This document shows, one piece after another, positions 4,217 to 29,479 of a DNA stretch of 64,000 nucleotides. The position numbers and the translations under genes are program-made. Position 1 is the stretch's first letter. Each line of letters opens with the position of its first letter. Source of the stretch: Actinomadura sp. DC4 (GTDB lineage Bacteria; Actinomycetota; Actinomycetes; Streptosporangiales; Streptosporangiaceae); NCBI RefSeq assembly GCF_030406325.1, contig NZ_JAUEQY010000011.1, positions 1 to 64,000 on the forward strand, read 5' to 3'. Under the pieces are notes generated by a model. That model was not told the origin of the DNA. It was given only the letters and a program-made list of their open reading frames with translations, and ran no database searches.

Positions 4217-7200
4217 TTATTTCTTGGCGATTCCCTTGGTCTTCGACAGCAGTTCGAGGCGCTCCAGCGCGGCCTTGAGCGCTTTGGTGAGATTGTTCAG
4301 CTGCGTGGCGACACCGGTCGACGCGGTGCCATTGACGATCGCCTCGCGATTCGCCGCGACCCAGGTCGTCATCTCGTCGAAGAGGCGCCGGTAGTCATTG
4401 ACCGCCGTCGCCAGGCCCTTGGGCACGGTGCCGGCCGCGGTGCTGCTCTCCGCGTCCTGCGGCAGGTCGTCCAGCAGCAGCTGGTTTCCGTACTGGATCT
4501 CGTCCCACTTCGCCAGGTTCTCCAGCGCCTGGGTCGGAGCCGCATCGGGTTCGGGCTCCTTCTTCTCCTCCGGCGCCTTCTCCGGTGCCTTCTCTGGTGT
4601 TTTCTCCGCAGGCGGCGGCTCTTCCTCGTCCTGGTCCTCTACAGCGGGCGCCGATGGCTCGTCGTCGTCATCGTCGTCGTCGTCCGGGAAGTCATCCGGC
4701 TCGCTCTCCTCCGGCGTCACGGGGAGGTTCACGGGACCCCCGCCGGCCGCCTCGACCAGCCGCTGGAACTCCTGGAAGGCGCGGCGCAGCAGCTCGGCGC
4801 GCTCGATCAGCGCCCGGCTCTCGGCGGGTGTGGGAAGCGGGCCGGGCGGCTCGAAGCCGTCGAGCAGGGCGGCGACCGCGTCCCACGAGGCCTGCAGGGC
4901 CGCGTTGGTCACCCCGCCCTGCAGCGGGTGGGCGGTGAGCTCCTCCAGCGTGTCCGCCAGCAGCCTCTCGTAGCTGTGCCGGTCCTCACGCAGGGCGCGG
5001 AACGTGCCGCGGGCGAGATCCTCGATCGTGCCGGCCACCAGCGCGCCGGCGTCCGGCTCCTCCCCGAGCTCGCCCGTGCCACGGAGCCGGGTGAGCAGCT
5101 CACCGCCCTGGATCCGGCCCGGCCCGGCGTCGCGCAGGGCGATGTTGAAGTTGCCGGCGAGCAGCAGCAGCCGCTCCGCCCGATCGCGTAGCGCGAGCCG
5201 CTGCGCGTCGTCCAGGGCGTTCGGCGTGACGTCGCCGAGCGTCCCCAGGTCCAGGACCGCCTGGTCGATGCCGGCGAGGAGGGCGTCACGGGCGGCGGTG
5301 AGCGCGCTCCGCCGCGCGCCCGTGGCGAGGCCGGGGATCATCACTTTGCGGAAACGGGTCTCCTGCCGGATGAAGACCCGGGTGGCCGGGTCGAGCAGGT
5401 AGCGCAGCAGCGGCCAGGCGCGGCCCGCCGTCACCTGGAGCCGCGGCCTCGTGAACAGGTCCGACGGCACGCGTGGCGAGCCCTCGCGGCCCGGAGCGCG
5501 CAGGCCGTCGACGTGCTCCTTGCGCAGCGTCCTGTCGAACTCCTCCAGCCGGTCCCGCAGGTTCCGGAGGACGTTCATGGCCAGCCCGGGACGATCAGTG
5601 CCCGTCGCGTTCGTGTCGAACGCCCGCGCCTGCGTGATCGCCTGGCGCAGCCCGCGCGCCACCCGTTCGACCGCCGTCACGCGTTCCTGGCGGGTCGTGG
5701 CGGCGGCGACCGCGGCGATCCGGCCGCCGATGAGGTCGTCGATGCGCGGCTCGGTCAGGAGGAACTCGACCGACCGCCGCAGGGCCGTCGCGTCCGCCGT
5801 GTTCAGCCGACCCGCGACCTCGTACAACGTCACCGGCTCGGGCCCCGCGTCCTGCGTCTTCTCGATGACCGGGGGCGCCTCACCGAGGGCCTGCTGGACG
5901 CCGAGGAGAGCCGCCTCCAGGGCCCGGTCCACGGCCTGGTACAGGTCGTGGAGCCGCTGATGCCGTGGAATGACGGTACGGAGCTGCCCCGTGGTCAGCC
6001 GCCTCGCGGGGAGCCTCATGAGGTCGTCGACGGCCTTGACGCCGTCGTCCAGCGCCTTGTCGGCCTCGGCGAGGGCGTCGCCGAGCCCGGCGACGTCGAC
6101 CGCCTGCTCGGTGGCCCGGCGGCGCAACGCGGTCAGTTCCGTGCGCCGGTTCGCGCGCTCGCCGGCGCGGGTGGCGTCGTTGTTCGCGCCGTACAGGGCC
6201 AGGTGCCGTCTCTCGAGCGCCGGTCGCGGCAGGTCCTCGGCCGGGATCAGGTCGGGGAACTGCCCGGTGACCCACTGCCTGACCTCGTCGAGGGTCTCGG
6301 CTTCGTGCTGGTGCGCGGCGTACATCGCCGACATCGCGGGGAACGCCTCGGCGAGCCGGTCCGGGCTCAGCGCGGCCGGATCGGCGCCGACGTACACGCC
6401 GTTCTCCAGGGGAACGAATGCGGGCAGCCTCGCCTCGGCGGCCTCGGACGCCGCCTGGGCCCCGGTCAGCCTGGTCCGCAGCGCCTCCACGTCGAAGCCC
6501 TGCTTCGTCGCCTCGTCCAGCCGGGCGTGCAGCCAGGCGCGGTCCGCAGCGAACGTGTCGGCCCGGTTGCGGTTCCGCTCGCCCTCGATCAGCGGCGCCA
6601 TGAACTCGCGCATCTCTTCCACGTCGCCGTCGGTGAACGCGCCCGTCTCAACATCGTCCTCGAGCTCGTCCAGTCGCGACTCGTGGTCCTTGACCGCGTC
6701 TTCGAGCTGGTCGACGGCGTCCCTTATCGTGGTCAGCTCGGCCGGGCCGAACTCCCCGACGAGGTCGGTGAAGACCGCCTCGTCGGGCGTCTCGAGCAGT
6801 TTCGGCCGTCGCCGGGTGATGTCGCCGGAGATGCGTTCCCACACCTGGTCGAAGTTGCGCCCGGCGTCCAGGAGGACGTCCGAGCCGTCTTCCAGCAGGG
6901 CGCGCCGCTCGTCGTCCGGCCGGTCCTCCAGCGCCCGTCGCATCCTCGCCGTACGGGCGTTGACCAGCCTGATCTTCGCGTGGACGGTCAGCAGGCGATG
7001 GAACCGCGTCGCCAGGTCACGGCGCAGACGCTCCTGCCGCCGCGCGGAGTCCTCGGGGCGCAGGTCCTCGGCGATCGCGTCGAGCTTGCGCCTCGCCCGG
7101 CCGAGGACCTGCTGCCACTCCCGGATCCTGCGGGACAGCTCGGTCAGGGCCCGATGGCTCAGCCGGACCTGACGGGGCGAGTACTCGGCCTCGGGGACCT

Positions 7201-10200
7201 CGAAGGAGGGGACGGCGTCCCCGGCCCGCCGTACGGCCTCGGCCGCGGCCTTCAGCTCCTTGACCATCGCGCCGACCTTGGCGCCCGCCTTCCGCGCGGC
7301 CTCGGCCCAGGCCAGCGTCTCCTCGGCCTGCTCCGCGATCACGTCCCGCACGCCGTCGCGGAACTCCAGTCCCTCCTGCAGCAGCGGCGGAAGCTGACGG
7401 CGCTCGTCCCGTACGTCCGCCTCCGCCGGCGGCCTGTGGTCGGCGAAGTCGGTCTCGAGCAGGGTGAGCAGTCCGGCCAGCGTCTCGTCGCGCCGGTTGA
7501 TCGCCTCGGCCAGGTCGCGCATGCCCAGGTACACCCGGGCCATCTGCTCCGGGGTGAGGTCGCGGACGCTCGCCGCTTCCTCCGGCCAGGCCAGGCCCTC
7601 CTGCGCCGCGATCACGGCCGCCAGCGCCCCCTGCAGCCGCCGGGCGGGTTCCTGGATGTCCTGGCCGCCGGACCTCGCGGTGTCGAGCCAGTCGAGCACC
7701 AGCGTCTCGTTGCCCCGGGCGGCCTCGAGGGCGGCCGCGGTACCGGCGGCCTGGATGGTCTCATAGAAGCCGTTCACCCGGTTCCGCAGCTGGGCGGCGC
7801 CCGCAGCCAGCGCCCCCTGCAGCCGCGTCCGTACCGTCCGGATGGCGGTGTCGAGGTCACGGGTGCGGTCGATGAGCTCCCGGAGCGGACGGGCGGCGGT
7901 GTAGGCGAGTGTCAGCGACAGGCCGAGCGGGTCGGCGGTCGCCTCCACGGCGTTCCGCCCCTCCTCCTGTACCTCCGCGAGGTCGTCCTCGGCCGCGTCG
8001 AGGATCTCGCGGATCTTCGCGACGTCGAGCCCGCCCGCTTCGGCGCCGGTGAGCCGGTCCCGCAGCTCCTGGAGGTCGGCGTCGCGCCGGGCCGCGTTCC
8101 GGTTGAGCGCCGACAGCGCGATCTGCAGGCCGATGATCCGGTTCACGAGCGGCATCGGCGCGGGCATCCTGCCCAGGGCGCGTTCGGCGTCGGCGATCGC
8201 GTCCGCGAGGGCGTCGGCGGCCGTCAGCCAGTCGCGCAGCGTGGTCCGGAGTCCGCCCAGCTGTGCGCTGCTCAGCGTGCCGATCCGCCGGCCCTGGTGC
8301 ACTCCGCTCATCCGCTGGACCTGGGCGGTGAACGCCTCGTGTGCCTCCGTCAGCGCGCGCCGCAGGTCCGCGACGTCGTGGCCGGCGCCGGCCGCGGCGT
8401 CGAGCATGTGCTCCAGATCGAGCCGGCGGGCGAGCCGCGGCCGGTTCTCCGCGACGAACTCCCGCATCTGCGCGTTGAGCGTGTTGATCTCCCAGAGCAG
8501 CACGTCGTCCTCGGGAGGCGCGGTCAGGTCCTCCTCGCGCCGGAACGCCGGCGGCAGCACGCGCGCCGGTGCGCCGGCGCCGAGCTCGCGCGTCTCCTTC
8601 AGCGGGATCAGCTCGAGCAGGTCGGGGACGCGCTCGGTCGGCGACCACAGCACCATCCCCTCGCCGGTGATCTCCACGGAGACGACCTCGGCGGGCTTGC
8701 CCGGCGCCGGCCGCCAGGAGAAGTTCCACCGCACCCGCTTGGCGTTGATCCGCGTGTAGTCGCGCTGCGTGGTCTTGTCCCCGCGCTCCAGCATGGAGCC
8801 GGGCTGGGAGGCCGTGCTGGAGTTGTCGAAGCCCACCGACGAGCTGACCGTCAGCGCTCCCGCGAGGGTCTGGAGCAGGTCGCCGTCGGGCACGTCCTTC
8901 CCGCCGTCCCGGGGGTCCTTCGACGGGACCTTCGGCACCTGCTCCAGGTGGTGGGCGCCCTTGACCACCGGCGTAACCGAACCGCCGAAGCCGTGGGAGG
9001 ACCGCACCGAAGTGGCGCTCTTGTGCAGACGGCGCTCGAAGTCCTTGGTGATGCCCTCGCTCAGGGTCACCCCGGTCACCGGGTCGTAGTCGACCGGCTC
9101 CCACTCCAGGATGTCGGCGCTGACGCCGAAGACCCCCCAGTCGTCCCACAGCACGCCGGGGACGGTCAGGTCCTCGCTCCACCCGTCGCCGTACAGCATC
9201 GGGATCGCGTTGCGGACGAGGAATCCGCTGGAGATGATCGTGTCGATCGTGTTCCGCAGCCGGTGCAGGCCGGTCTGCCAGGACGTCTTCGGGCCGAGGT
9301 CGAAGTACTTCTTCACGTTCGGCCGCTCGAAGAGCAGCTTGGCGACCTCGCGCAGCCGGGGGATGGCGCCGATCGTCTCCACGTCCGACTCCGCGAGGAG
9401 CGTCGAGTTCAGCGAGAACCCGTTCCGCAGCGTGCCGTGGTTCCGGTTCGCCGCCAGCTCCCCGTACGCGTGATCGGTAAGGGGCCGCTCCGGCTCCAGC
9501 TGCTCCACTCCGGTCGGTACGGTCACGGCGGTGTACACGAGCTGCTGGACCAGCGGGTTCACCGCCTCGTTCACGGCGTTGGACGAGCCGGTCTTCTTGT
9601 CGTCGGCGAGGCCGACCTGGGCAGCGTCGAAGGGCACGCGAGGGTCGAACCGCGTCAGGGCGCGCGGGAACGCGAGCACCAGCCCGCCGAGCTCGATCGC
9701 GGACACGTCGATCCGGGTGCTGGACCGCGGCCGGTCCAGGAGCAGGGTGTTCAGCTCGGCGACGAACGCGCGGTCCAGGACGACGCTGACGTCGAACCGC
9801 ACGTCGAAGCGGAACTGCTCGGGCCTGTCGAGGTGGAGCAGGCCGAAGCTCTCCTCGTGCTTGATGGTGGAGGTCTGCTCCCGGCCGGTCGAGCGCGTGC
9901 CCGTACCGCTGAGGCCGGCGTCCTCCTCGCGCAGGCTCTGGGTGCTGAGGAAGTTGCGGGCCTGGGTGAGCCCGGCGGTGCCGGTCCAGGACCCGGACGT
10001 GCCGCGTGACGCGTCGATCTGCTCGCCGCGGGCGTTCTTCCGCTCGATCACCTTCGTGGCGGCGGTCGGCCCCTCGTGCTGCGGGTTGGTCAGGCGCGCC
10101 TTGATGGTCAGCGTCGCCATCGAGCCGATGAAGAAGCTCCGGTCGGGGATGAGAACGCTCAGCCCGGCGAGCATGTCCTCCAACAACGCGTCGGTCCCCT

Positions 10201-13200
10201 TGACCGTGGTGATCTTCTCCAGCTGTTCCTCGATCGCCTCGGCGACCTGCTCGGGGAAGGCCCGGCGGGCCTCCTCCATGACGAGCTGGTGGAGCCCCCT
10301 GTCCCTGGCGTCCTCGCCGTGGTCCAGCTCCGGCACCTCGATTTTGATCGAGTGGCCGATGCCGTCGCCCCGCATGGTGTTCGTCGGGGGCAGCAGCGCG
10401 CCGCGGCGGACCTTGACGGGCGTGACGCCCGCGCTGAGGTCCAGCCAGTCCGGCTCCACGTCGCCGGCGCTCGCGTACAGCAGCAGCCAGGCGTGGGCGG
10501 CCTGGGGAGCGGGCAGGGAGTTGGCCGGCTGCGCACCCTCCAGCTCCGCGTCGGGCTTGATCAGATTGCGGTCCACCGCCTGCTTGTACGGCATCAGGAT
10601 CAAGCCGGAGGCGTTGACGTCGGAGCTGCGGCTCCGCATCCCCGAGCGGTGCAGCGCCCACGCGTCCCACACCTCGGCGTGCACGCTCCAGGTCAGCGCG
10701 ACGTCGCCCCACATCTGGGCGTCGATGTCGATCTCGACCCGGTCGAACTGGCCCGTACGGGTGACGGTCTCCCTCGTGGGGCCCGAGCGCGCGTACCGGG
10801 GGTTGACCGACAGCCGGAGCGAGTCGGGCGGGCTCGGCGCCGACTCCAGGCCGAAGGGGAGGTTGAGCGTGCCGCCGAAGGTCCAGTTGCCGTAGTCGGT
10901 GCTGATGCCGCGCCCCACGGTGGCGGTGGCGAGCGAGTGCGTGTAGCGGTACGCCACACGGCTCAGGCCCAGCGAGCCGATCTTGTCGACGCGCACGCGG
11001 AGGCTGACCTTGGCCATGGTGTCGCGGAACGGGCCCCAGGTCAGCCGTCCGGTCCAGATCCGCCGCGCCCGCTTCTGGAAGTCGCGGAACTGCGGCCCGA
11101 CCGTGTTGATGCGGTTGGCCAGTTGCGCGTGCTCGACCGGGGTGAGCGTCTCCACCCCGAGCAGCTTGAACACGTGCTGGATCTCGGAGAGGAGCCTGCC
11201 GGTGTCGGGGGTCACCAGGGCGCCCTGCGGCAGCCGGTGCACCAGGTTCGCACTCGAAGGGTCCGGCGTCCACTCCTGGTCCCGGCTCTCCTGGGGCAGC
11301 ACCGGCGTGGTCGTCATGCCGTACAGGTCGCGGGTGGGGATGTCCTTGAGGCGCTTCTTCCGCTCGTCGTCGAGCACGACCTCATGGGTCAGGTCCTCGT
11401 TGACGAACAGGTTGGTGGCCACCTGCACTGGAGCCGCGGTGGCGAGCTCCCTGGTCAGGGTGACGGTCGCCTCCTCGTCGTAGGCGCCGGGCATCACGGC
11501 CTGGTCCTTGCGGCGGTTGGCCGTCACCTTCTCGGCGCTCAGCAGGAAGCGGAAGCCGCCCTTGAACTCGGCCATGTAGTTGGAGCCGCCGCCGATCGCC
11601 CCTCCGGCGCTGAAGCCGCTCTTCTCCTCGACCGACCCGCTCCAGCCGACCCGTGGCTGGATGGTGAAGTCCGTCTCGGCCAGCGGGCCCTTGGTGAGCT
11701 TCTTGCCGGCGAACGGAAGGTCGATGCCCGTGCTGAGGCTCCACGCGCGTACGGTCGAGGTGGCCAGGTCCCAGAAGTTGCCGTAGTAGACCTCGACCTG
11801 GCCGCCGAGGGTCCGCAGATAGCGGAAGTCCCTGCGGTCGTACTGCGCCTGGACGCGCACCGACAGATGCCGGTCGCGTACGTTGCCCGGCAACGGCAGC
11901 AGGATCTCATCGCCTCCGCCCGCCGCCTTGTGCAGCCGGCCGGCGAGGTCCTCGGGGCCCAGGGCGTTCCAGAGCGTGAGGAAGTTGTCGAAGCCGTCGG
12001 TCCAGTTCTCGTCGAACCGCACCCGGCTGCGGCCGGCCGGGACCGCGTCGCGCAGGGAGATGCCCGGCAGGAATTCGGGGAAGTTGGCGAGGATCAGCCC
12101 GACCGCGCCGTCGAGGACGCCGATGACCTCCGGTCCCCAGCGGCTCACCCGGCTGAACGGCGGCAGCCAGTCCGCGAACTGCGGCGGGAGGACCAGCGTA
12201 CGGCCGGGGGACCGGCGTTTGCGAAGTTCCTCGGACGTCGCGGTGTCGATCTCCTCGGCGGAGTACCGGCTGCTGCTCCTCGACCGGTGTGAGATCGCCG
12301 ACCCCGACGACTTGGAGCGGCGGTCCGCCGACAGGAAGCCGACGTCCAGGGTCTTGTTCTCCTCCGTCTTCGGAGAGGCCAGCGGGGCCAGCGGCTTCAC
12401 CGTCGTGAACTCGAGACGCTCGTCCCGGCGCGCGTCCGAGGTCAGCATCCGCATCAGGACGTAGCCCTTGACGCGTTGGACCCGGTTCGCGGTGAGGCTG
12501 GAGACCTCGAAGATCGCCGTGAACCCGACCAGGCTCTGCGGTTCGCTGGTGAACTTGAGCTTGTACAGCTCCACGCCTCCCGCACCCATGCCCGGCCGGT
12601 TCTGCGACACGGACCGCTCGCCGGAGAGCGGCACCTCCGGGGAGAAACCGAGGGTGGTCGCGGCCAGCCTGATGGCGACGGAGTGCCGGGTGCTGATGGC
12701 GTCGGTCTGGCTCACCGGCTCGGACATGCTGGTCACCAGCGTGTCCTCGGTGTCGACCTTGGTGCGGGTGTCCAGCTCGGTGAGGACCTTGCCCTGGTAC
12801 AGCCGGACGTTGATCTTCACCAGGTCCGTCACGAACAGGCCGGCGGCGTTCCGCTCGTACAGCGGGTTGGACAGCAGGCCCTCCCGGTTGGCCCGGTGCA
12901 GGCCGCCCTTGAGCGTCCCGACGCCGGTGAACGTGGTCAGCGACTCGTGGCTCGCCGTGCCGACCTTCGACAGCGCGGGATGCACCAGGGAGAACGCCGC
13001 CGCGCGGACCGACGCCGAGCCGACGACCGCCTCCGTCCACGACGTCCGCGGCAATGTGTGCTCGGGGCCCAGCTCGGTGTCGGTGGGGATGGGCTCGTCC
13101 GGAGTCAGCGAAGCGTGACGCGCGCTGTCCGTACGGCCGCGGAAGTCCAGGGTGATCTGGTCGTGGAACTCCTTGACCTGGGCGGTCGTCGCGTCGAGCC

Positions 13201-22200: not shown

Positions 22201-25200
22201 CGTCGTGGGCGGACAGCGCGGCGTCGAGCTCCTGTGCCAGTTCGGCCTGCGAGGACTCGAGGACGGCGTGGAACGTCAGCCGTCCCGGCAGGCCGTCGAC
22301 CAGCCCGGCCGTCTCTTCGCGTACGGTCTCCAGCGCCTCGCCGAGCGCCTCGGGAGCGAGTTCGTCCTCGTCCAGGCCGTGGAACTCCCGGTCGTACTTC
22401 GCGTCGAAGGCCCGCTCGAACTCCTCCCACACCTTGTCCAGGGCCGCCTCGGAGATCCGCCCGCCGCCGTCCTCCCACTGCCGTACGGCGTCGTCGAACC
22501 GGTCCGCGATCTCCACGCGCTCGGCGCTCAGGTGCTCGTCGAGCGTGACCTGAGGTGGTGTGGTCTCCGGCGCCGGCTCGGTGACCGGCGTCTCCAGCGC
22601 GAGCAGCTCGTCCTGGATCCGGCGGCCGACCCCGGCGCCGAGGCGCTCGTCGACCTGGCCGCGGGTGAGCGTGACCACGGGCGCCTGCTCGACCACCGGC
22701 TCCTCGACCACCGGCTCCTCGACCACCGGCTCCTCGTGCACCCGCGGTGCCGGGGGCTCGGGGGCCAGCTTGCGCGCCGCCGCGAGGTGGAACGGGACCG
22801 CGGCGATGAGGCCGCGGACCTCCGGCCGGAAGCGGAGCTTCACGATCTGATCCGCCTCGGGCCGCGGCAGCTTCCCGGTCTTCACCTCGCCGAACAACCG
22901 GTCGGCCGTGGCCTGGAGGTCGTCGCGCACCATGGCACGGGCCTGGGCGACCTGGTGGTCCGTCAGGTTCTCCGTCTGGGCCGCCTTCGCGTCGAACGCC
23001 TCCAGGACGGTCTGCTGGGCGACGTCCACGGTCGCCTGGAAGTCCAGCCGGTCCGGCAGGGTGCCGAGCAGTTCGTCCGCCTTGGCGGCGAAGGAGGTCC
23101 CCCTGGTCGCCTCGAAGGACGCCGTCGCGGCCTCGTCGAACTCGGCCCGTACCTTGTCCATCGCCGCGCCGGAGAGGACGTTCAGCTCGTGTGCCGCCTC
23201 CCAGTCGCCGACGGCGGCCGCGAACTTCTGCTTCAGGCCGGCCGCGCGCAGCGCCGCGGGCTCGGCGGGGGCGGGCCGGGCCGCGTCGAGGCGGTGCGGG
23301 ATCTCCTCGATGAGGTGCTCGATCCGGGGGCCCAGCCGTTCCTCGCCGATCCGGACCGCCTCCGCCTCTGACAGCGATCCGGTCTTGAGACCGCGCAGCT
23401 CCTTCTCGACCGCGCCGGCGACGTCGGCCTGGACCTTCCGGCGTACCTCGGCGACCTGCTCGGCCGGCAGCGTCGTCGTCTCCGCCGCCTCGTCGAAGTG
23501 CGCGCCGACCTCCCGCTGGACGGACTCGGTGATCGCCTGGTGGTCGAGCCGGCCCTGCACGGTCGTGGCCAGCGCCTTCGCGGTCAGCCGCAGATACCGG
23601 TCGTTCTTCTTGAACGCCGTGCTCGCCGCCCGCGCGAACTCCTCGCGCACCTGGCCGAGGCCGGCCGGGGAGATGACGCGGTCCTCCTCGCTCGCCAGCC
23701 AGGTCTCCGCGGCAGCGTCGAACGTGTCCAGCAGGGCGTCCTTGGCCGCCTGTACGGTCGCGGCGGTGACCGGCTCCGCCGTCGACGTGAGTTGCCCGGC
23801 GTCCGTGAGGGCCTCGACCACCTCCTGGACCGTTTCCGGTGCGCTCTCGACGCGCTTCCACGCCTGGTCGATCGCATGGTCGGACAGGAGGGTGTTCTCC
23901 AGCCGCGCGTCGACGGCCGCGTCGAACCGCTGCCGCGCCTCGCCGAGGGCGTCCTCGGTCCTTCGCTGGAGGTCCAGCCGGTCCGCCACGGTCCCGGCCA
24001 GCTCGTCCACGGCCGCGGCGATGTCCGGCGCGTCGCGGAACGCCTCGGCGGCGGCCTCGTCGTACTCCGCCCGTACCTTGGCGAGGCCCTCGCCGGAGAG
24101 CGTGCGTCCCTCGCCGCCGGCCTGCCAGGCGTCGACGGCGGCGGCGAACCTCTCGGCGGCCCGGTCGACCACCTTCGGCGGCGCGGGGACCGGGGTCGCC
24201 TCGTCCAGCCGGTGCGCGACGCCGTCGACCAGATGCTGGACGCGTGGTGTCACCCGGTCCGCGGTGATCAGGTTCACCTGCGGCGGGGTCAGCGTGCCGG
24301 TCTTCAGGTCGCCGAGCTCCTGGGCGATCACGTCGGCGACGTCCTCCGCGATCTGCCGGCGGACCTCGGCGGGGACGGTCAGGCCTTCGAGAGCCTGGGC
24401 CTGGAACCTCTCGACCGTGGCCTGGAAGTCGAGGCGGCCCGGTACGGAGGCGGTCAGCATGGCCGAGACCGCCGTACGGTACTGGCTGTTCTTCAGCGCG
24501 TTCCGGGCGTCCTGGGCGAACTCACCGCGTACCTTGGCGAGGCCCGCCTCAGAGAGGGCGTGCCCCTCCTGTGCCTGCCAGCCGGCGGTGGCGGTCTCGA
24601 ACGCGCTGTCCAGCGCCTCCTGCGCCGCCTCTGCCGTGTGGACCGGGTTCGCGGAGGTGGCTGGAAGCGTGCCCGCCTCGTCCAGGCGCTCGGGAAGCCC
24701 GTCGATGATCTGCTGGACCCGCGCCGCCGGGGCCTGCCCCTGCTCGATGGTGTCCCGCAGCTCGGTATGGATCCGCTCGCGCGCCTGGTCGATCTGGTGG
24801 TCCGACAGCAGCTGCCCGGGTTTGCGCACGTACTCGCCGACCGTCGCGTCGAACCGCTGCCGTACGTCGTCCTGGAAGACGCGCGTCGTCGCGGCCTGGA
24901 CACGGGCCTCGGCCGCCTCGACCGCGACCTGCTCGTCCAGCCGCGCGGGGATCGAGTCGAGGAGCGCCTTCGCCTTCGGCGCGAAGTCATGGGTGCCGGC
25001 CGTCTCGCCGAACGCCTGCCCGGCGGCCCCGCCGAACTCCTTGCGCACCTTCGCCACGCCCGCGTCCGAGAGGGTCCCCTGGCCGCGCCATTCGTCCACG
25101 GCGGCGTCGAACTTCCGGTTCAGGTTCTCCCGTGCCGCCTCCCACGCCGTCGTACGCGCGCCCGTCCTGACCTGCTCGGCCATGGTGGTCTGCGGCTCGG

Positions 25201-28200
25201 TGTGCGTGAGGTACACGGCGTCGTCCAGGCGCCGGGGGATCTCTTCGATGAGCTTCTCGAACGGGCCCTTGACGTCCTGCAGGATCCGGTCGACCTCCGG
25301 TTCGGTCAGCCCGTCCGTCTTGAGGCCGTTCGCCCGCTGGTCGAGGGTTGCCCGCGCCTCGGTCTGGATCTGGTCGCGGACCTGGGCCACCTGGTGCTCG
25401 GTGAGCGGGTCGGCACCCTCCTTGTTCAGGCGGTCGGCGACCGCGGCGTCGAGCTTCTCGTCCATGACGTCGCGGGTGGCGTCCGCGACCTCCTCGAACT
25501 CGCCGCCGCCCTCCGCCGGCTGAGGGACCGGCCGCGGCTCTCCGGGGGCACCGGTCTCCGGGTCCAGGCCGGCGATCTCGCGGAAGTCCCGGAGCGTCCG
25601 GGCCGCACGGGCGTCCGTCACCTCGGACAGGCGCGTGCCGAATGCGTCGCCGGCGCTCTTCTCCTGGGCCAGCCAGGAGTCGACGTCGAGCTCGCCGCGA
25701 CCCCACGTCTCGTCGTACGCCTCGACCCAGTCGTGCCGGAAGTCGGCGGAGAGCGTGTCGAGGGTGTCCTCGTCGAACGCCCACAACCCCTCGTTGATGC
25801 CCTCGAAGGCGGACGCGGCCTGCGGAAGCGTGGCCTCCAGCCCCTCCTCGTGGGCGAGCCGGTCCCGCAGGTCCTTCCTGAGCGCGTCGAAGCCGTCGTC
25901 GAACCGCCTGGCGTTCGCCTCGGGGAGGGGACGGCCCTCCTTCAGCGGCCCGAAGGTCTCCCTGTAAGCGGCGTCGACCTTGGCGACGAACTCGTCGCGG
26001 ACCCGGGTCAGGCCCTCCTCGGAGACCTCGCCGATGAGGCCCTGCCAGCGGTCGGCCGTCCTGGCGAAGGTGTCCTGGGCGTTGCGGATCGCGCCTTCCA
26101 TGCCTTCGTGGAACTCCATCCGGCCGTCGAGGGTCCCGGCCAGCTCCTCCGCACGGACCTGCCAGGCCTCTTGGGCCTCGCGGTAGCGCTGCGGGCTCCA
26201 CTTGTCGCCGCCTGCCAGGCCCTCGAAGACCTTCCCGTACGCGTCGCCGAGGTCACCGGTCCACTCCTCGGCGGCCTTGGCCAGCCCCTCCTCGGAGAGG
26301 TTCCAGCGCTCGGCCGCGGCGTCGAAGCGTTCCCGCAGTTCGGCGGCTGCCTGGACCTTGCCGGCCTCGACCATGAACCGGCCGGTGACCGGGTCCATGA
26401 TCTGCTCTCGCGCCTGTTCGTACTCCGCCTGCGCCTGGTCGAGCCGCTTCTCGCCCCAGGTCTCTCCGTTCGCGAGCCCGTCGTGGGCTTCGGAGTAGGC
26501 GTCCTGGACCTTGGTCAGGAACTCCTGCCTGAGCGCGGCCCGCACCTCCGGGGTCAGGCCCTCGCCCTGGTGGGCCTTCATCCAGGCGTCGTAGTCGCCG
26601 TCGAACCGCTTGCCGGCCTGCTCGAATACCTCCTGACGGCCCGCCTCCACCTTCAGCCGGCCGCCCACCGTGTCGCCGAGGTCGTTCAGGTAGTCGTCGA
26701 ACTTCTGGGTGATCCGGCTCCGCTGGTCCTCGGTCAGGCCGGGCTTCTTGAGGACCTCGGCGAACTTGTCGAACACCTTGCCCGCCGCGCGGCCGTACTC
26801 CTCGTGGACCGCCTCCAGCCGCTCACCGCTGAGGGGGGTCGCGGCGTCGCGGTTGAAGGCGTTCGCCTCGGCGGTGAACCGGCGCTCGAACTCCAGGCGT
26901 GAACCGGCCGTACGGATCAGGTCATCGACCTGGCGGCCGAAGGCCTCGTGGGTGGCGGCGAACCGCTCCGGGGACATCTCGCCGTTCTTCAACGGGCCGA
27001 AGGTGTCCTCGTACAGGTGGCGCAGGTCGCGTTCGAAGCCCTCGCGCGCCCGGCCGGCGTCGGCCTCGAAGCCGGCCTTGGCCGCGTCGACCTTGTCCAG
27101 GAAGTCGGGGACGCTCGTCTCGGGGCTGATCGTCTCCTGGAGGTCGGAGAAGTGCTCCGTGGCCTCGCGCACCCAGTCCTGGGCGGACTCGGTGAACTTC
27201 CGGGTCGCGTCGTGGTTCTGGACGGCGTAGGTGTCCTCGAAGGTGAAGCGGTCGGTGTAGGTCTGGGTGAGCTGGTCCTGCCGGAAGTCCCACGCCTCCA
27301 TCCGCGCGCCGAGCGCGTCGGGGTCGGGGAAGCGGGCGTCCGCCGGGCCGCCCACGTCGATCGGCGTGACCGGAGGGTTCTGGTCGGGCTGGTTCTGGTC
27401 GGGTGGGGTCTTGTCGAACAGGTCGGGCCGGTCGGCCGGAGTGGTGTTCTCGCCGACCACCGTCGTGGCGTCGGAGACCGATCCGTCCACGAGGGTCGCC
27501 GTGTCGTCGGGACCCGATATCTCGGACTTGCCGGTGACCGGCTTGGTCTCGGGGCCGAACGTCGCGGTCGCGGGCTTTCCGGTGGGTGTGCTCGGCGGGC
27601 CGAGCGGGCTCGTGTCCCTGGGGCCGGGGGAGGCCAGGTCGGGGCGGGGGCCGGGCGTTTCGGTACGCGGCGTCGTGCCGGGCGTCCCATGACCGCCGGG
27701 GGTCGGCTGGGGGGCGCCGACCGGTTCGTTCGGGCCGCCGAAGGGTGCGGGGGCCGTGGCCTGAGGGGTCTGCACCCCGGCGGCCGGGGACGGATCGCCG
27801 GGACCGGCGCTTTCGAGCGGTGTCGGGGCCGCGTCCCGGCCGAGACCGCCGGCCTGCGCCGGATCCTGCCGTACGCCGGAGTTGTCGGCGTTGGTGGTGA
27901 CGGTCGGCTGGTCCTGTCGTACGCCGGGTGTGTCGGCGTTGGTCGTGAAGGGCGGCTGGTCCTGCCGTACGTCCGGTGTGCCCGCGTTGGCGGTGACCGG
28001 TGGCTGGTCCTGTCCAACGCCGGGTGTGTCGGCGTTTCCGGTCGTGGGGGGTGCGTCCTGCCGTACGCCAGGGGTGTCGATGTTGGTGGTGACGGGCGGC
28101 TGGTCCTGCCGTACGCCCGGTGTGCCGGCGGTGACCGGGGGTGCGTCGTGCGGTACGCCGGGGATGCCGGTGGTCGCCGGGTCCTGCGGGAGGCCGGACT

Positions 28201-29479
28201 CGGTGGGACGGTCGAGCTGCGGGGACGGCGCGTCCGAGAACGGCACTTCGTGGGGGTTCAGGATTCCGCGGTCGTCGGGCGCCTGCTCCGGCGCCCGGCC
28301 GAACGGGGGGTACGTGCTGTGGTCCAGCGGCTCGACCGGTGTGAAGCCCGGCGGGAACTCCAGCCGCGTGGGCGGCGGCGCCTCGACCGGGAGCGGCGGG
28401 ACCTCCCCGATGACGGGCGCTTCGCTCGGTGTGAAGCCCGGGGGGAACTCCACCACCGGCGGAGGGTCGGTGACGAAGGTGTCGGGCAGGTCGTTCAGCC
28501 AGTCGCCCACCTGGGGCTCGGGCGTTCCCTGATCCGGGCCCAGGTCGGGGCGTGGCCCGGGCGGCCCGTCCCCGCCGAAGTCCGCGATGTCCGAGCCGAA
28601 GTCGGGCACGTCCACCGGGATTTCGATCTTGCCGGCTCCGGCCCGTACGCCGAGTTCCGACGCTGCCGCGCCCGCACCGCCCATGAACGCTCCGGCGGCG
28701 GCCTCGAACGGGGTCACCTCGATCGGCTCGCCGGTGATCACCTCCGTGGCCACGGTGGTGACGACGCCCAGGCCGGCCCCTGCCACGGCGTTACCGGCGA
28801 TCTTGGCCACGATGTCGTCGGTCAGCCCGGCGATCATCTTGTTCATCCCGGTGAAGATGACCGGGCCGAGCAGCCCGCCGGCCGCCGCGCCGATCGAGGC
28901 CAGCTTGGTGATGTCCTTGTCCCAGGCCTCGCGGTCACCGTTGGCGAGCTGCCCGAGCTGGATCGACGCGTCGGTGACCAGGGAGATGATCTCGTTGACC
29001 ACCACGGACGCGATGAGCTCCTCCATGAACTGCCAGGCCGCCTGGTTGGCGCCGGCCACGACCTCGGGGAGGAGGGTCAGCGCGGCGCCACCGGTGTACT
29101 CGGCCAGGAGGTAGATGTAGACGACCGTCGCCAGCGACTGGGCGAGCATGACCAGCGACGAGACCTTCATGTACTCGATCTTCAGCGCCCACTCGTAGAG
29201 CTGGTCGCGCGCCATCTGGTGAAGATCGCTCAGCTCGTCGAGACTGCCCAGCAACTGGGTGAGCGTCTGCCGGGCCTCGGCGGCACCGTCCCCGTCGAAG
29301 GCCTGCGTGAGCATTTCGAGCGGCTGGAAGAGACTCTGCCTGTCGTCCGCGATGCCGTTCGCGATCTCGAGGTGCATGAGGCCGAGGCCCTCGAGACGGT
29401 CCTCGTTGGCCATCGGAAACGCCCCGCCGTCGAACACCCCGAAGATGTCTCCGGCCCACTCGGGCAACATGATCGCCAC
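4217..29479 (-). CDS. Giant (8420 aa) LonelyCys-like/macro/OTU-like protein of the type VII locus
   Basis: One uninterrupted frame of 25,263 bp, about 0.9 MDa. The start is GTG 29479, with GGAGG eight bases upstream; longer in-frame starts lack a ribosome site. Residues 1-300 carry hydrophobic helices and an MLPEW opening like CpnT-type (WXG100-like) N-terminal domains. About 300-700 is Pro/Thr-rich with 17-residue TPGVRQDQPP repeats. About 720-3800 are many 85-110-residue helical repeats (LSxxGLAKVRxEF). About 3820-4060 resembles the LonelyCys domain (H3954, C3994 in VLFLVCYF). About 4110-4300 is a macro domain (GDILEQP, NAAN). About 4385-4545 is OTU-like (GDANCFYHS with C4398, GHYMG with H4536). 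About 4900-6900 is beta-rich. The tail has helical GxDVxxLR repeats and an Asp tract. Only two cysteines were seen. It is probably a secreted or surface effector; its function is inferred only. Confidence 0.85.
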   Translation of the reverse strand: MAIMLPEWAGDIFGVFDGGAFPMANEDRLEGLGLMHLEIANGIADDRQSLFQPLEMLTQAFDGDGAAEARQTLTQLLGSLDELSDLHQMARDQLYEWALKIEYMKVSSLVMLAQSLATVVYIYLLAEYTGGAALTLLPEVVAGANQAAWQFMEELIASVVVNEIISLVTDASIQLGQLANGDREAWDKDITKLASIGAAAGGLLGPVIFTGMNKMIAGLTDDIVAKIAGNAVAGAGLGVVTTVATEVITGEPIEVTPFEAAAGAFMGGAGAAASELGVRAGAGKIEIPVDVPDFGSDIADFGGDGPPGPRPDLGPDQGTPEPQVGDWLNDLPDTFVTDPPPVVEFPPGFTPSEAPVIGEVPPLPVEAPPPTRLEFPPGFTPVEPLDHSTYPPFGRAPEQAPDDRGILNPHEVPFSDAPSPQLDRPTESGLPQDPATTGIPGVPHDAPPVTAGTPGVRQDQPPVTTNIDTPGVRQDAPPTTGNADTPGVGQDQPPVTANAGTPDVRQDQPPFTTNADTPGVRQDQPTVTTNADNSGVRQDPAQAGGLGRDAAPTPLESAGPGDPSPAAGVQTPQATAPAPFGGPNEPVGAPQPTPGGHGTPGTTPRTETPGPRPDLASPGPRDTSPLGPPSTPTGKPATATFGPETKPVTGKSEISGPDDTATLVDGSVSDATTVVGENTTPADRPDLFDKTPPDQNQPDQNPPVTPIDVGGPADARFPDPDALGARMEAWDFRQDQLTQTYTDRFTFEDTYAVQNHDATRKFTESAQDWVREATEHFSDLQETISPETSVPDFLDKVDAAKAGFEADAGRAREGFERDLRHLYEDTFGPLKNGEMSPERFAATHEAFGRQVDDLIRTAGSRLEFERRFTAEANAFNRDAATPLSGERLEAVHEEYGRAAGKVFDKFAEVLKKPGLTEDQRSRITQKFDDYLNDLGDTVGGRLKVEAGRQEVFEQAGKRFDGDYDAWMKAHQGEGLTPEVRAALRQEFLTKVQDAYSEAHDGLANGETWGEKRLDQAQAEYEQAREQIMDPVTGRFMVEAGKVQAAAELRERFDAAAERWNLSEEGLAKAAEEWTGDLGDAYGKVFEGLAGGDKWSPQRYREAQEAWQVRAEELAGTLDGRMEFHEGMEGAIRNAQDTFARTADRWQGLIGEVSEEGLTRVRDEFVAKVDAAYRETFGPLKEGRPLPEANARRFDDGFDALRKDLRDRLAHEEGLEATLPQAASAFEGINEGLWAFDEDTLDTLSADFRHDWVEAYDETWGRGELDVDSWLAQEKSAGDAFGTRLSEVTDARAARTLRDFREIAGLDPETGAPGEPRPVPQPAEGGGEFEEVADATRDVMDEKLDAAVADRLNKEGADPLTEHQVAQVRDQIQTEARATLDQRANGLKTDGLTEPEVDRILQDVKGPFEKLIEEIPRRLDDAVYLTHTEPQTTMAEQVRTGARTTAWEAARENLNRKFDAAVDEWRGQGTLSDAGVAKVRKEFGGAAGQAFGETAGTHDFAPKAKALLDSIPARLDEQVAVEAAEARVQAATTRVFQDDVRQRFDATVGEYVRKPGQLLSDHQIDQARERIHTELRDTIEQGQAPAARVQQIIDGLPERLDEAGTLPATSANPVHTAEAAQEALDSAFETATAGWQAQEGHALSEAGLAKVRGEFAQDARNALKNSQYRTAVSAMLTASVPGRLDFQATVERFQAQALEGLTVPAEVRRQIAEDVADVIAQELGDLKTGTLTPPQVNLITADRVTPRVQHLVDGVAHRLDEATPVPAPPKVVDRAAERFAAAVDAWQAGGEGRTLSGEGLAKVRAEYDEAAAEAFRDAPDIAAAVDELAGTVADRLDLQRRTEDALGEARQRFDAAVDARLENTLLSDHAIDQAWKRVESAPETVQEVVEALTDAGQLTSTAEPVTAATVQAAKDALLDTFDAAAETWLASEEDRVISPAGLGQVREEFARAASTAFKKNDRYLRLTAKALATTVQGRLDHQAITESVQREVGAHFDEAAETTTLPAEQVAEVRRKVQADVAGAVEKELRGLKTGSLSEAEAVRIGEERLGPRIEHLIEEIPHRLDAARPAPAEPAALRAAGLKQKFAAAVGDWEAAHELNVLSGAAMDKVRAEFDEAATASFEATRGTSFAAKADELLGTLPDRLDFQATVDVAQQTVLEAFDAKAAQTENLTDHQVAQARAMVRDDLQATADRLFGEVKTGKLPRPEADQIVKLRFRPEVRGLIAAVPFHLAAARKLAPEPPAPRVHEEPVVEEPVVEEPVVEQAPVVTLTRGQVDERLGAGVGRRIQDELLALETPVTEPAPETTPPQVTLDEHLSAERVEIADRFDDAVRQWEDGGGRISEAALDKVWEEFERAFDAKYDREFHGLDEDELAPEALGEALETVREETAGLVDGLPGRLTFHAVLESSQAELAQELDAALSAHDGLTGDAVERIRDRVRDRVEEATARRYGDRARLDARGETAARRGLADALKTIARSLPQEIAYEAHLALRAGEAEAQLDAVVRQWEETGGTGADVAAVRARFGEAVRQVHWKAFRGLRKGPTTAKSGHMVEDMLWTSGLREHLGVAATELGLSPQVHEPGAPRQAETGWRTVQDRLGIDDRFAAAVRDSGERLSEAGTAAVRAQYDAAFKKTFDKTLGGLVDGLSDTAVAAAAPAFERAAAELLDGVGGLLTYEATLEAGQAEALAALGAAAAEQGTAVTPRMERLLREDVEAAVAATHGGLKTGDLGAVGLAGANRRLTDTLAQINTLMPRRLAHEAEFAVRMEEAQTRLTETADGLPASLTDLIEVREEFSAQVERLHDRAFARRRLGETTDALGEAMWSTGLRGRLSDAAKALGAAETAPAPAPPRFVPETPVTARRQVVVKQEPRNDATWRERQDRLIERYEARTRLEERLITEKRRLGESVEDAIAEWRSAGNAPPLSETGLAKVRDDVGRAYEKAFRTELRGLAQGRLTDETLEEGLRGLENTVSRLVEGIAGRLDVQATVEFARDRALDKLGEAAGEHAFSEEATDRLERELGRRIETAVEQKIGRLPELNGEGLVKAGQELVEWTARIEAEIPHLLAFEAHAERRLAEAQARFEEAVEDADARRRLTEAARDLHADAYGRMSHGHLAPKALRAAKQTWTKGLDALLRKATGEAALPAALRELEHRFDEALGAYQEGEPDRRVTVEDAEDTEDQAAGGSLAADDEDLLRPSGEGATIAEKTTEEFYALHRAPAHPVSARGVAQVRAEFLATAKAAYHHVLKGGGGTWAGQVDRLTGLLPGWLEFEGRWEAEAAAVTPALDAALAEAAATKGLAAPGVAQARAGFLADLRQGFERTWDFLRSPEPAPRRLEHAAQAWADLVTGLTADLDERFAGEAGLTAALHDAALAYDVIDEAANLPRDVRDRLATRFRADWAHAYAESNGLRHLRVGDWLAAEAARTNAFATTLGWARSRRDGWETEQERLTTRFTARIAFEARLAAERQAAGHLFDEAAAKSTLPAASRKRARADFDRAVEAAFREHLGGLATGTLAGPALVDAWLGFEAASAALVASVPERLEAPDQEQEHDEPELATEDAPPATLHDDLGARFAEAAAHAGPLSPEALVRARARFVATATAAYERLHREEPATAAWEWPIRLEELVAALPGRLAAEQRWDEELTTVAPAIEAAIPEGLSPAGAERARARFEQRLREAYDEARAYSGPAAERLWDIWRDGLLAGLADHFAEEAGLEAALRQGGRRYEALDAEGDLTGSARGRLAREFRTEWATAYQATHSTEPPTLDLTGWLAEEARRQNTFGAALTWTRLRRETEEVRRADEGTGLTRAPDEGIARTFAEAELAGVIRLPGALVAVAVDAETGAVILSGAGDQGNRFYLPLHGVDGQALLDLRSGPPGTLHGADALAAAAGFRRVLGGDALESLGALPQGVMEVPAGLYFAGANADKAEFSAASEFPELADYFVVFGHPDAMTGMLTDGGRPLTDAEAARRIDADPRRRGRPVLFLVCYFLDAAAAILSHLDGKGIATDGMIWQQPGGVTAQWPFVFGSGMLPGLAEPADFVELDGARRTPAGPDLGAVLTANAEALAKIPINAPVSWAPGENVTTPKGNTLTKVDDVTYEITLPGATANTPRLLIVQGDILEQPTQAIVNAANAGLSHGGTIAATIADAGGRQNGERRIDVASRQALADRGVTTLNVGDAVTTESFDIGKKNKRTITHVIHTVGPNYAIPSQQDAQLLYDAVYSALREADALGLTSVTFPQISTNAFKMKDDLATRYTARALLDTATNVQEVRLVLYGLDDAYARRFADWLFEGARLDRRAPSARVTPEEIRKSQARGAIPAITSTLKKTTTSRAKGKAQDFRDLTALVGTPSRAIKTATTERAPYDGSELAAKMAELNLRELDVPGDANCFYHSLIEMAWDHLKRVIPDLADLGDGRGDNRYKAVRAIRRWLANRLRVDFTVADQGRLSRYGGRFYFNDYESVEEQQNRFVREIREMNSWNNQAGDSVAHLAAAELGLPITVVQNRYTTDLGHVPGGPRLYFVRVPGHYMGTRSTLDQPPDLPWDQFAPAEESTPEEAVQRFDEQSIALQDRFGEAWQGLAALSTRLPADLRAVFDAYADVNLAGFQAGLDSTGYTGVPGYTRAQLQVDDLLRAANSLERLVTEAQTWLTGLTTSISVLRTALDTGAVTGALDAAAGATGDLAEAARRLEAAVRDARELFPDGVPEDLTPARLQAGPEAVWRTAQEVASALLAFDQAFTQAGNDALPFGDLTGQALTEFLGLGVAHTDIEAAPIPVPVRHRLGVLADEDMVFEDEEAESLDAGLQAWNEVDNAWLDFAEDFSQATDRLRRAIEEVEDEDIRLALAGELVTLGEWHHDAELTVAKIREAALGGQVPTAETREKVRGRVGAVRAAIAELRHHLAAAGVQVVRPATSTAPPRPVSAAPPRKTLVTTLVRQPPPVTGTTLKPPWSPDTPLSEAHTEPAKAGEVAERGWDRLKKNWARLDTAYRDASDRLTGDVGDLGGIRDRLEPRLAKLAERHDAVAKLFTWANTAATAERVPDAAVRAYLTEQIDTQRRLFEEVRNAVRGARDAQRDRSKIGSIARIPLIQEGEERPIQDVVDPDEEDLRKLFAPPDYTTRSDLRQTVGPHTSEATDELLARVRNLILGALPDDLRSEATDILSRTLNEDTFGADFEEALGDGLALTLHTTKGVYEVVVTLHLGGWTQITDPRGNLLEGLPTGFQRFRRLPGKGDLRTRQLHEYGRGISASRSYRSELNLGPSLSGSKGFKGKFAELGGTIGATSIPLHRTGQTDGVSTSTNTARYIKTSSYRAIDFVHDVGILLTVDKAGGDLRLITDIVAGALKTSFGREAVRSRDRGLTDPAYATTEWWNAKTEAEAETETEQAGQETADDATTQDEDRIDVVPLPETQAVAKAPSPRLDATTAQVKEFHDQITLDFRGRTDSARHASLTPDEPIPTDTELGPEHTLPRTSWTEAVVGSASVRAAAFSLVHPALSKVGTASHESLTTFTGVGTLKGGLHRANREGLLSNPLYERNAAGLFVTDLVKINVRLYQGKVLTELDTRTKVDTEDTLVTSMSEPVSQTDAISTRHSVAIRLAATTLGFSPEVPLSGERSVSQNRPGMGAGGVELYKLKFTSEPQSLVGFTAIFEVSSLTANRVQRVKGYVLMRMLTSDARRDERLEFTTVKPLAPLASPKTEENKTLDVGFLSADRRSKSSGSAISHRSRSSSRYSAEEIDTATSEELRKRRSPGRTLVLPPQFADWLPPFSRVSRWGPEVIGVLDGAVGLILANFPEFLPGISLRDAVPAGRSRVRFDENWTDGFDNFLTLWNALGPEDLAGRLHKAAGGGDEILLPLPGNVRDRHLSVRVQAQYDRRDFRYLRTLGGQVEVYYGNFWDLATSTVRAWSLSTGIDLPFAGKKLTKGPLAETDFTIQPRVGWSGSVEEKSGFSAGGAIGGGSNYMAEFKGGFRFLLSAEKVTANRRKDQAVMPGAYDEEATVTLTRELATAAPVQVATNLFVNEDLTHEVVLDDERKKRLKDIPTRDLYGMTTTPVLPQESRDQEWTPDPSSANLVHRLPQGALVTPDTGRLLSEIQHVFKLLGVETLTPVEHAQLANRINTVGPQFRDFQKRARRIWTGRLTWGPFRDTMAKVSLRVRVDKIGSLGLSRVAYRYTHSLATATVGRGISTDYGNWTFGGTLNLPFGLESAPSPPDSLRLSVNPRYARSGPTRETVTRTGQFDRVEIDIDAQMWGDVALTWSVHAEVWDAWALHRSGMRSRSSDVNASGLILMPYKQAVDRNLIKPDAELEGAQPANSLPAPQAAHAWLLLYASAGDVEPDWLDLSAGVTPVKVRRGALLPPTNTMRGDGIGHSIKIEVPELDHGEDARDRGLHQLVMEEARRAFPEQVAEAIEEQLEKITTVKGTDALLEDMLAGLSVLIPDRSFFIGSMATLTIKARLTNPQHEGPTAATKVIERKNARGEQIDASRGTSGSWTGTAGLTQARNFLSTQSLREEDAGLSGTGTRSTGREQTSTIKHEESFGLLHLDRPEQFRFDVRFDVSVVLDRAFVAELNTLLLDRPRSSTRIDVSAIELGGLVLAFPRALTRFDPRVPFDAAQVGLADDKKTGSSNAVNEAVNPLVQQLVYTAVTVPTGVEQLEPERPLTDHAYGELAANRNHGTLRNGFSLNSTLLAESDVETIGAIPRLREVAKLLFERPNVKKYFDLGPKTSWQTGLHRLRNTIDTIISSGFLVRNAIPMLYGDGWSEDLTVPGVLWDDWGVFGVSADILEWEPVDYDPVTGVTLSEGITKDFERRLHKSATSVRSSHGFGGSVTPVVKGAHHLEQVPKVPSKDPRDGGKDVPDGDLLQTLAGALTVSSSVGFDNSSTASQPGSMLERGDKTTQRDYTRINAKRVRWNFSWRPAPGKPAEVVSVEITGEGMVLWSPTERVPDLLELIPLKETRELGAGAPARVLPPAFRREEDLTAPPEDDVLLWEINTLNAQMREFVAENRPRLARRLDLEHMLDAAAGAGHDVADLRRALTEAHEAFTAQVQRMSGVHQGRRIGTLSSAQLGGLRTTLRDWLTAADALADAIADAERALGRMPAPMPLVNRIIGLQIALSALNRNAARRDADLQELRDRLTGAEAGGLDVAKIREILDAAEDDLAEVQEEGRNAVEATADPLGLSLTLAYTAARPLRELIDRTRDLDTAIRTVRTRLQGALAAGAAQLRNRVNGFYETIQAAGTAAALEAARGNETLVLDWLDTARSGGQDIQEPARRLQGALAAVIAAQEGLAWPEEAASVRDLTPEQMARVYLGMRDLAEAINRRDETLAGLLTLLETDFADHRPPAEADVRDERRQLPPLLQEGLEFRDGVRDVIAEQAEETLAWAEAARKAGAKVGAMVKELKAAAEAVRRAGDAVPSFEVPEAEYSPRQVRLSHRALTELSRRIREWQQVLGRARRKLDAIAEDLRPEDSARRQERLRRDLATRFHRLLTVHAKIRLVNARTARMRRALEDRPDDERRALLEDGSDVLLDAGRNFDQVWERISGDITRRRPKLLETPDEAVFTDLVGEFGPAELTTIRDAVDQLEDAVKDHESRLDELEDDVETGAFTDGDVEEMREFMAPLIEGERNRNRADTFAADRAWLHARLDEATKQGFDVEALRTRLTGAQAASEAAEARLPAFVPLENGVYVGADPAALSPDRLAEAFPAMSAMYAAHQHEAETLDEVRQWVTGQFPDLIPAEDLPRPALERRHLALYGANNDATRAGERANRRTELTALRRRATEQAVDVAGLGDALAEADKALDDGVKAVDDLMRLPARRLTTGQLRTVIPRHQRLHDLYQAVDRALEAALLGVQQALGEAPPVIEKTQDAGPEPVTLYEVAGRLNTADATALRRSVEFLLTEPRIDDLIGGRIAAVAAATTRQERVTAVERVARGLRQAITQARAFDTNATGTDRPGLAMNVLRNLRDRLEEFDRTLRKEHVDGLRAPGREGSPRVPSDLFTRPRLQVTAGRAWPLLRYLLDPATRVFIRQETRFRKVMIPGLATGARRSALTAARDALLAGIDQAVLDLGTLGDVTPNALDDAQRLALRDRAERLLLLAGNFNIALRDAGPGRIQGGELLTRLRGTGELGEEPDAGALVAGTIEDLARGTFRALREDRHSYERLLADTLEELTAHPLQGGVTNAALQASWDAVAALLDGFEPPGPLPTPAESRALIERAELLRRAFQEFQRLVEAAGGGPVNLPVTPEESEPDDFPDDDDDDDDEPSAPAVEDQDEEEPPPAEKTPEKAPEKAPEEKKEPEPDAAPTQALENLAKWDEIQYGNQLLLDDLPQDAESSTAAGTVPKGLATAVNDYRRLFDEMTTWVAANREAIVNGTASTGVATQLNNLTKALKAALERLELLSKTKGIAKK
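22691..22735 (-). repeat. 15-bp tandem repeat, three copies
   Basis: Three perfect copies of GACCACCGGCTCCTC encode EEPVV repeats in a Pro/Glu-rich linker between helical repeats of the giant protein. Confidence 0.9.
27860..28140 (-). repeat. Tandem repeats of about 51 bp in the Pro/Thr-rich linker
   Basis: Six or more diverged copies encode a unit of about 17 residues of the form TPGVRQDQPPVTTNAD (residues about 447-540 of the giant protein). The recurring DNA core is CTGGTCCTGYCGTACGCC. They probably form an extended, flexible spacer between the N-terminal secretion domain and the helical repeats. Confidence 0.8.

Follow-up and report, generated by a model that had tools for sequence, protein, structure and literature searches.

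What would a bacterium do with a single polypeptide of more than eight thousand residues encoded among the genes of a type VII secretion system? The question is raised by a stretch of 64,000 nucleotides from Actinomadura sp. DC4 (positions 1 to 64,000 of contig NZ_JAUEQY010000011.1; hereafter the window), which is the start of contig C10 in a source genome of 10.67 Mb in 101 contigs. The gene for the giant protein occupies positions 4217..29479 on the minus strand, with residue i starting at position 29479-3(i-1). Its frame is open from an alternative GTG at 29557 down to 4217, and because a GGAGGG sits 8 bases upstream of the GTG at 29479, the 8,420 residues obtained from the latter start are the likely length. 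The guanine and cytosine (GC) content by codon position is 0.74/0.49/0.95 and therefore fits real coding. These features bear out the single frame of 8,420 residues put forward in the original prediction, an earlier reading of the same DNA.

We propose, with a probability of roughly 45%, that the giant is a type VII (ESX-type) secreted, self-processed and multifunctional effector, most likely deployed against eukaryotic grazers such as amoebae. Computation supports the parts from which this proposal is built: the N-terminus is of an export type, the gene lies in a type VII locus, the chain comprises repeats, a His...Cys segment, macro domain and OTU fold along with a shared beta-rich module, and cysteine is scarce. 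The gene adjoins those for EccB, EccC, EccD, an S8 mycosin-like protease, an EccA-like AAA protein and WXG100 proteins. From N- to C-terminus the protein runs through an export domain, a Pro-rich linker, helical repeats, the His...Cys segment, the macro domain, the OTU domain, a helical stretch, the beta-rich module and a helical C-terminal part. Several enzymatic domains are thus predicted in one chain, the macro domain from its sequence and the OTU domain from its fold.

On sequence grounds the macro identity of residues 4105-4310 (16550..17167, minus strand) is certain: they match PF01661 with an E-value of 1.5e-19 and, at E<=1e-3, 42 different sequences in the PDB, which upholds the macro domain of the original prediction, albeit with an altered second loop, STNAFK. 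With the AF1521/MacroD-type macro domains they share PF01661 and the GDI and NAAN motifs, but where AF1521 has the binding loops GGG and SAGIYG the giant has GGT and STNAFK. The second of these glycine-rich loops is the diphosphate loop, and both have a role in macro domains; given the loops of the giant, hydrolysis of ADP-ribose is therefore doubtful. Twelve macro matches were recovered from eight Actinoallomurus genomes, and only that of the window lies inside a giant frame. A search of plasmid records with the core of the protein gave 26 records, the best 20 of which match on the macro domain.

Residues 4373-4560 (15800..16363, minus strand) are predicted from alignment and a structure model to form an OTU-fold protease domain with Cys4398 and His4536, set in the motifs GDANCFYHS at 4394 and GHYMG at 4535. 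The AlphaFold model is mostly confident over this region, and 49 of the 50 structures among the matches listed (drawn from Foldseek's first 1000 chains) are OTU deubiquitinases. Moreover, the catalytic residues (Cys32 and His170 of A1) are invariant in 12 aligned modules. The model thus supports the OTU fold, and the OTU-like domain foreseen from these two motifs has stood up, both in its conserved residues and in its predicted structure. At the sequence level, Pfam gave no OTU family hit in the giant, Peptidase_C65 was matched in one of the 12 OTU relatives at E 0.034, and the OTU alignment had no significant match in the PDB (the best OTU reached E 0.064, below a non-OTU top row at 0.041). 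In comparison with OTU deubiquitinases such as OTUD3, the nairovirus OTU and the otubains, the domain shares 10-20% identity, is without a Pfam match and is embedded in a giant. An OTU profile found a counterpart in one of 393 other genomes of the class (five candidates scored per genome), and when the OTU alignment was run against named genomes it recovered six loci, five in Actinoallomurus and one, a short match, in Endozoicomonas.

An OTU fold with conserved Cys and His fits either a ubiquitin-directed protease or a self-processing one. This bears on a second and rather unlikely explanation, namely that processing is the job of two proteases, the OTU domain and the His...Cys segment, that the giant targets rival bacteria with a payload in its beta-rich or C-terminal part, and that ubiquitin is not a substrate. 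The processing option is proposed by Zhang et al. 2012 (PMC3482391). Against it, the OTU part can be aligned to OTUs that cleave ubiquitin, a likeness that concerns the fold only.

The second candidate protease lies in residues 3826-4090 (17210..18004, minus strand), where His3954...Cys3994 form a caspase-like (clan CD) pattern. In this pattern a His and a Cys each follow a hydrophobic strand-like stretch, as do His3954 and Cys3994. The original prediction had called the segment LonelyCys-like, a label that did not hold as worded. The segment has the His...Cys pattern in common with the NCBIfam family lonely_Cys (NF012197), but the model itself leaves it unmatched at E 0.01, E 1 and E 10, and membership was rejected; the label is fair as a statement of likeness. 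Twelve His...Cys segments were considered, of which eight were aligned and four, including G006 C15221, left out; the His and Cys are invariant in the eight aligned, which had been selected by the pattern, and in another set of four picked by position or homology. Residues 3826-4090 also match, in another genus, a frame of 3,298 residues (E 1.3e-5; a single genome among the 393 others of the class, with six candidates scored in each) and, in a pairwise comparison, the corresponding segment of a protein from Actinoallomurus iriomotensis (E 2.6e-5), and the pattern is present in both. A PDB search with eight of the segments gave a chance hit only.

The beta-rich module (residues 5111-6959; 8603..14149, minus strand) runs collinear with a stretch of a 12,384-residue frame from another family, in G185, with 27% identity over 1,883 columns (E 5e-110). 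That frame (G185:C23:38920-76074, minus strand) has one cysteine and is a mosaic of a module like that of the window and one resembling a module of the remaining Actinoallomurus giants; just before the collinear part it carries a segment matching NF012197 at E 2.4e-10, under the cut-off, and its sole cysteine falls in this segment. Outside its own genome the module was found in one of 295 class genomes and one of 295 genomes of the genus of G185, in both cases G185 itself (two candidates scored per genome), and the plasmid records held no relative of it. Comparison by hhalign of the window/G185 pair with the beta-rich part of the A. iriomotensis protein left them unjoined over their length (E 0.076, 93 columns). 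A smaller beta-unit within the module (residues 6744-6824; 9008..9250, minus strand) is more widely shared: a hidden Markov model (HMM) of 75 residues built from two seeds gave 18 hits over 13 of the 14 proteins scanned and none in reversed sequences, with E-values that are inflated by iteration of the model. The exception is the 2,401-residue frame C27. The Ser/Thr/Gly-rich stretches of the module suggest the idea of a pore or translocation role.

The N-terminal 300 residues (28580..29479, minus strand) resemble the WXG100_2/CpnT-like type VII export domain PF25547. The CpnT-like start named in the original prediction was not borne out as worded: in the giant itself the match is under the Pfam cut-off (E 4e-4, 20.7 bits against 27), whereas eight other N-termini scanned with the same profile score 28.7-52.6 bits, and the giant's N-terminus is homologous to those of four other giants (phmmer, best E 3.8e-11). 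By composition, residues 300-750 (27230..28582, minus strand) form a Pro/Thr-rich linker. Residues 750-3800 (18080..27232, minus strand) consist of about 30 divergent helical repeats, spaced mostly 70-110 residues apart; the iterated HMM, run without a control, gave 31 matches, 30 of them at residues 794-3765, in agreement with the roughly 3,000 residues of helical repeats expected. Beyond the OTU domain lie a helical stretch assigned by composition (residues 4560-5110; 14150..15802, minus strand) and, after the beta-rich module, a C-terminal part recognized from sequence and composition as helical, in which an acidic/Pro stretch comes close to the end (residues 6990-8420; 4220..8512, minus strand).

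The giant of the window is one of a larger group. At least 14 OTU-bearing frames occur in six of the eight Actinoallomurus genomes, the longest of 25,518 residues from stop to stop. This recurrence of OTU modules favors the processing-protease explanation, with the bias that the query which found the frames itself contained an OTU; in its favor too, the related giants each carry several cysteine-enzyme sites and HExxH motifs. Nine of the 12 frames examined lie 4-12 kb from an EccB gene, and for C33, C42 and C27 no EccB was seen on the contig among the matches. In seven of the eight loci outside the window, EccB is followed by two to four small genes that look WXG100-like by eye, then by a 697-1,130-residue protein, one or two small genes and the giant; in the eighth (C55) no 697-1,130-residue frame passed the filter. 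The gene after the giant matches SseB in Pfam at both sister loci where it was sought, and a third, C47, has a weak lectin match instead. Full-length homology of the window giant to the others was rejected, as hits were confined to the N-terminus, the OTU domain, weak repeats and the beta-unit. The G003:C3 giant is 41-58% identical to nine other giants over stretches of at least a thousand residues, with C27 (2,401 residues) unmatched. The 25,518-residue frame, from A. iriomotensis (G003:C14:71781-148337, minus strand), lies 5.6 kb from EccB and has 7 cysteines, two OTU modules and six HExxH motifs, the last counted without a chance control. Bacterial proteins larger than this exist, and no size record is claimed. 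A second giant frame of 18,762 residues (G000:C10:93012-149300, plus strand), about 63 kb further along the window's contig, has 5 cysteines, matches lonely_Cys weakly at two places and carries at least eight HExxH motifs.

A different locus of A. iriomotensis proved more informative as a counterpart of the window. It has the same EccA-like gene (E 0) and mycosin (1e-68) along with EccC, EccB and EccD, and we take it as orthologous because the other loci of the giants showed no such EccA-like or mycosin gene. It ends in a 3,367-residue protein (G003:C2:303314-313417, minus strand) that retains the export domain (26% identity, E 9e-19) together with a His...Cys segment and a beta-rich part carrying the beta-unit; by BLAST it shows no macro domain or helical repeats, and its end resembles a second His...Cys-type segment without the Cys (BLAST E 0.064). 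The kept export domain and differing remainder suggest that the payload varies behind one N-terminus, on the basis of the one pair compared. Its OTU counterpart is a pseudo-OTU with Ser for the catalytic Cys and the His kept (hhalign 92.5%, E 4.8e-7), which argues against an essential processing role of the kind that the processing-protease explanation calls for.

The scarcity of cysteine offers a different view of these proteins. The giant has 2 cysteines against 74 expected (Poisson P 2e-29), the expectation of 0.88% being drawn from 11 other genes of the window (47 in 5,356 residues). Five likely type VII proteins adjoining it have 1 cysteine in 1,219 residues, and part of the poverty is therefore a trait of exported proteins. 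A census of 12 of the 14 OTU-bearing frames (2,401 to 25,518 residues, with the G002 and G005 frames left out; 133,455 residues in all) found 52 cysteines, or 49 once three near a frame start and probably before the start codon were dropped. A motif script, written after the contexts had been viewed, assigns 38 of the 49: 14 to OTU, 10 to His...Cys (including one with Pro for His), 9 to papain-fold, 3 to NCW and 2 to protein-glutaminase sites. Among the 11 left over, two are OTU variants by eye (the first inside a BLAST-found module, the second about 57 residues before such a hit), and four make up two pairs of like sites, for which the two segments scanned (one per pair) narrowly pass Gln_amidase at 24.2 and 24.9 bits against a Pfam cut-off of 24.1. 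In total, 44 of the 49 fall at predicted cysteine-enzyme sites, 38 by motif and 6 by eye or kinship. When seven segments around cysteines were compared with Pfam, five matched Gln_amidase, one Gln_deamidase_2 and one (NCW) no family; in the five Gln_amidase matches the best stretch is the later His/Asp part of the profile, with the Cys itself outside. Three of the remaining five cysteines are within the last 20 residues of their frames (G000:C55, C27 and C33). In C55 and C33 this cysteine stands in an SSYS/SSHS...CVEV context, which is reminiscent of DUF397. Counter to a rule that cysteine marks active sites, one of two cysteines in the A. iriomotensis protein and two of three in the 3,298-residue frame belong to the export domain.

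This pattern also bears on a further explanation, that the giant is a cell-surface or extracellular scaffold (a stalk or adhesin) in which the macro and OTU domains are mostly decayed binding modules. The 3,000 residues of repeats, the altered macro loop and the OTU without Cys at the matching A. iriomotensis locus would all suit such a scaffold, but Cys4398 and His4536 have been retained though nearly all other cysteine is absent, and other cysteine enzymes in the sister giants show the same retention; we accordingly consider it very unlikely.

In the proposed effector the route of export would be type VII, as the original prediction held, and both the surrounding genes and the export-type N-terminus argue for it. 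The predicted eccB/C/D locus was confirmed by Pfam: EccC (36170..41353, minus strand; PF01580, E 2e-87; a frame whose true start is probably further in), EccD (40236..41621, plus strand; PF19053, E 2e-80) and EccB (41634..43061, plus strand; PF05108, E 4e-100) are accompanied by a mycosin-like S8 protease (34976..36139, minus strand; PF00082, E 4e-26), and no EccE was seen at the locus. Next to the protease, the EccA-like protein (31605..34979, minus strand) fuses a right-handed beta-helix with two AAA domains, a combination that appears to us unusual for an ESX chaperone, and between it and the giant is a 625-residue membrane protein, LysM-like by eye and without a Pfam hit (29702..31579, minus strand). 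Downstream of the giant, all on the minus strand, are two WXG100 proteins of 114 (3791..4135; PF06013, E 2e-8) and 102 residues (3472..3780; PF06013, E 1.5e-7), a 131-residue protein that matched no family (3014..3409), a 589-residue Pro-rich protein without a Pfam family (1199..2968) and a 283-residue T7SS_signal/WXG100 protein (281..1132; PF21725, E 4.5e-6). Segments of the LGPDGQPLGPDGQ type recur in the 589-residue protein, which ends in a Gly-rich stretch and by eye is perhaps a further type VII substrate. Thus, three of the five downstream neighbors match WXG100/T7SS families and two have no Pfam match at E 0.01; none matches an immunity family by Pfam, a search that would miss new immunity families. 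Within that scope the predicted lack of an immunity gene beside the giant may stand, and it would speak against rival bacteria as the target.

How far is such a protein new? Zhang et al. 2012 (PMC3482391) described gigantic actinobacterial proteins of more than 10,000 residues with OTU, caspase-like and other toxin domains, the longest being SACTE_5178 with 13,652 residues; the paper also covers OTU toxins with N-terminal WXG domains and leaves open whether the OTUs of the giants process or attack. The window giant resembles them in being actinobacterial, thousands of residues long and equipped with several predicted enzymes, an OTU and a candidate caspase-like domain among them. It differs from them, as far as SACTE_5178 is described there, in having a macro domain flanked by the caspase-like segment and the OTU, in its roughly 30 repeats and in its two cysteines. 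The chances seem evenly balanced that it is one more of these published polymorphic toxins with only the macro domain new, a view compatible with any of the functional explanations. Weighing against this view, the term "Macro domain" never appears in the first 300,000 characters of PMC3482391, and the cysteine pattern, the shared beta-unit and the change of payload at one locus are absent from the passages of that paper that were considered. The architecture is, nevertheless, less new than first thought, since giants that combine an OTU with caspase-like domains had appeared in print by 2012 (PMC3482391). What goes beyond the original prediction are the at least 14 OTU-bearing frames in the Actinoallomurus genomes, the near absence of cysteine and the shared beta-rich unit. 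Literature searches on macro, OTU and type VII together found PMC3482391 alone, and those on "lonely Cys" and on Actinoallomurus with type VII secretion found no paper; among the papers listed, none was seen to test an actinobacterial giant by experiment, although such proteins have been known from sequence since 2012.

Several observations weigh against the giant being a secreted, self-processed effector against eukaryotes. The macro domain is without the usual glycine-rich second loop, and the Ser-for-Cys pseudo-OTU of A. iriomotensis suggests that such OTU catalysis is dispensable there. At the His...Cys segment the AlphaFold predicted local distance difference test (pLDDT) score is under 55, and a caspase-like fold is no more than a candidate there; hhalign of this segment with four other such segments gave 0.2%, and the sister segment G006 C15221, outside the alignment, has Pro for His. 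The PDB holds no sequence relative of the beta-rich module, the absence of an immunity gene is judged by Pfam only, and as neighboring exported proteins are also Cys-poor, cysteine poverty alone is no mark of an effector. The original suggestion of an effector against eukaryotes, or of self-processing, hence survives in part: type VII export, the macro domain and the OTU domain are supported, whereas the altered macro loop and the pseudo-OTU tell against a simple effector.

If the giant is nevertheless such an effector, it would be threaded out through the ESX pore, a passage that its scarce cysteine may ease, with the helical repeats forming a long stalk and the beta-rich module binding or crossing the target membrane. 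The caspase-like segment with Cys3994 would then cleave the chain, and the freed macro-OTU block would act on ubiquitin through the OTU and on ADP-ribose marks through the macro domain, the latter perhaps as a reader only, given its altered second loop. The MARTX toxins of Gram-negative bacteria likewise combine long repeats, several effector domains and a cysteine protease for release; they use another export system, and the likeness is by analogy only. In such a setting the macro-OTU pair would be, to our knowledge, the first case of a single bacterial chain directed at ADP-ribose signals as well as ubiquitin signals.

A more far-reaching and decidedly speculative possibility, which we regard as improbable, is that the giants constitute a class of exported multi-enzyme proteins that keep cysteine almost only as a catalytic residue, such that chains of up to about 25,500 residues could thread and refold without wrong disulfides, while the beta-rich module would carry the enzymes into eukaryotic cells, where macro and OTU would jointly hit ADP-ribose and ubiquitin signaling. 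If cysteine marks active sites, a scan for lone cysteines would locate a giant's enzymes with no need of a family model; the stretches around two lone cysteines left unassigned by the motif list did then match a papain-fold toxin family, narrowly over the Pfam cut-off. The window and the matching A. iriomotensis locus, with an active-looking OTU and a macro domain in one and a pseudo-OTU without a macro domain in the other, make a natural pair for working out the role of this block.
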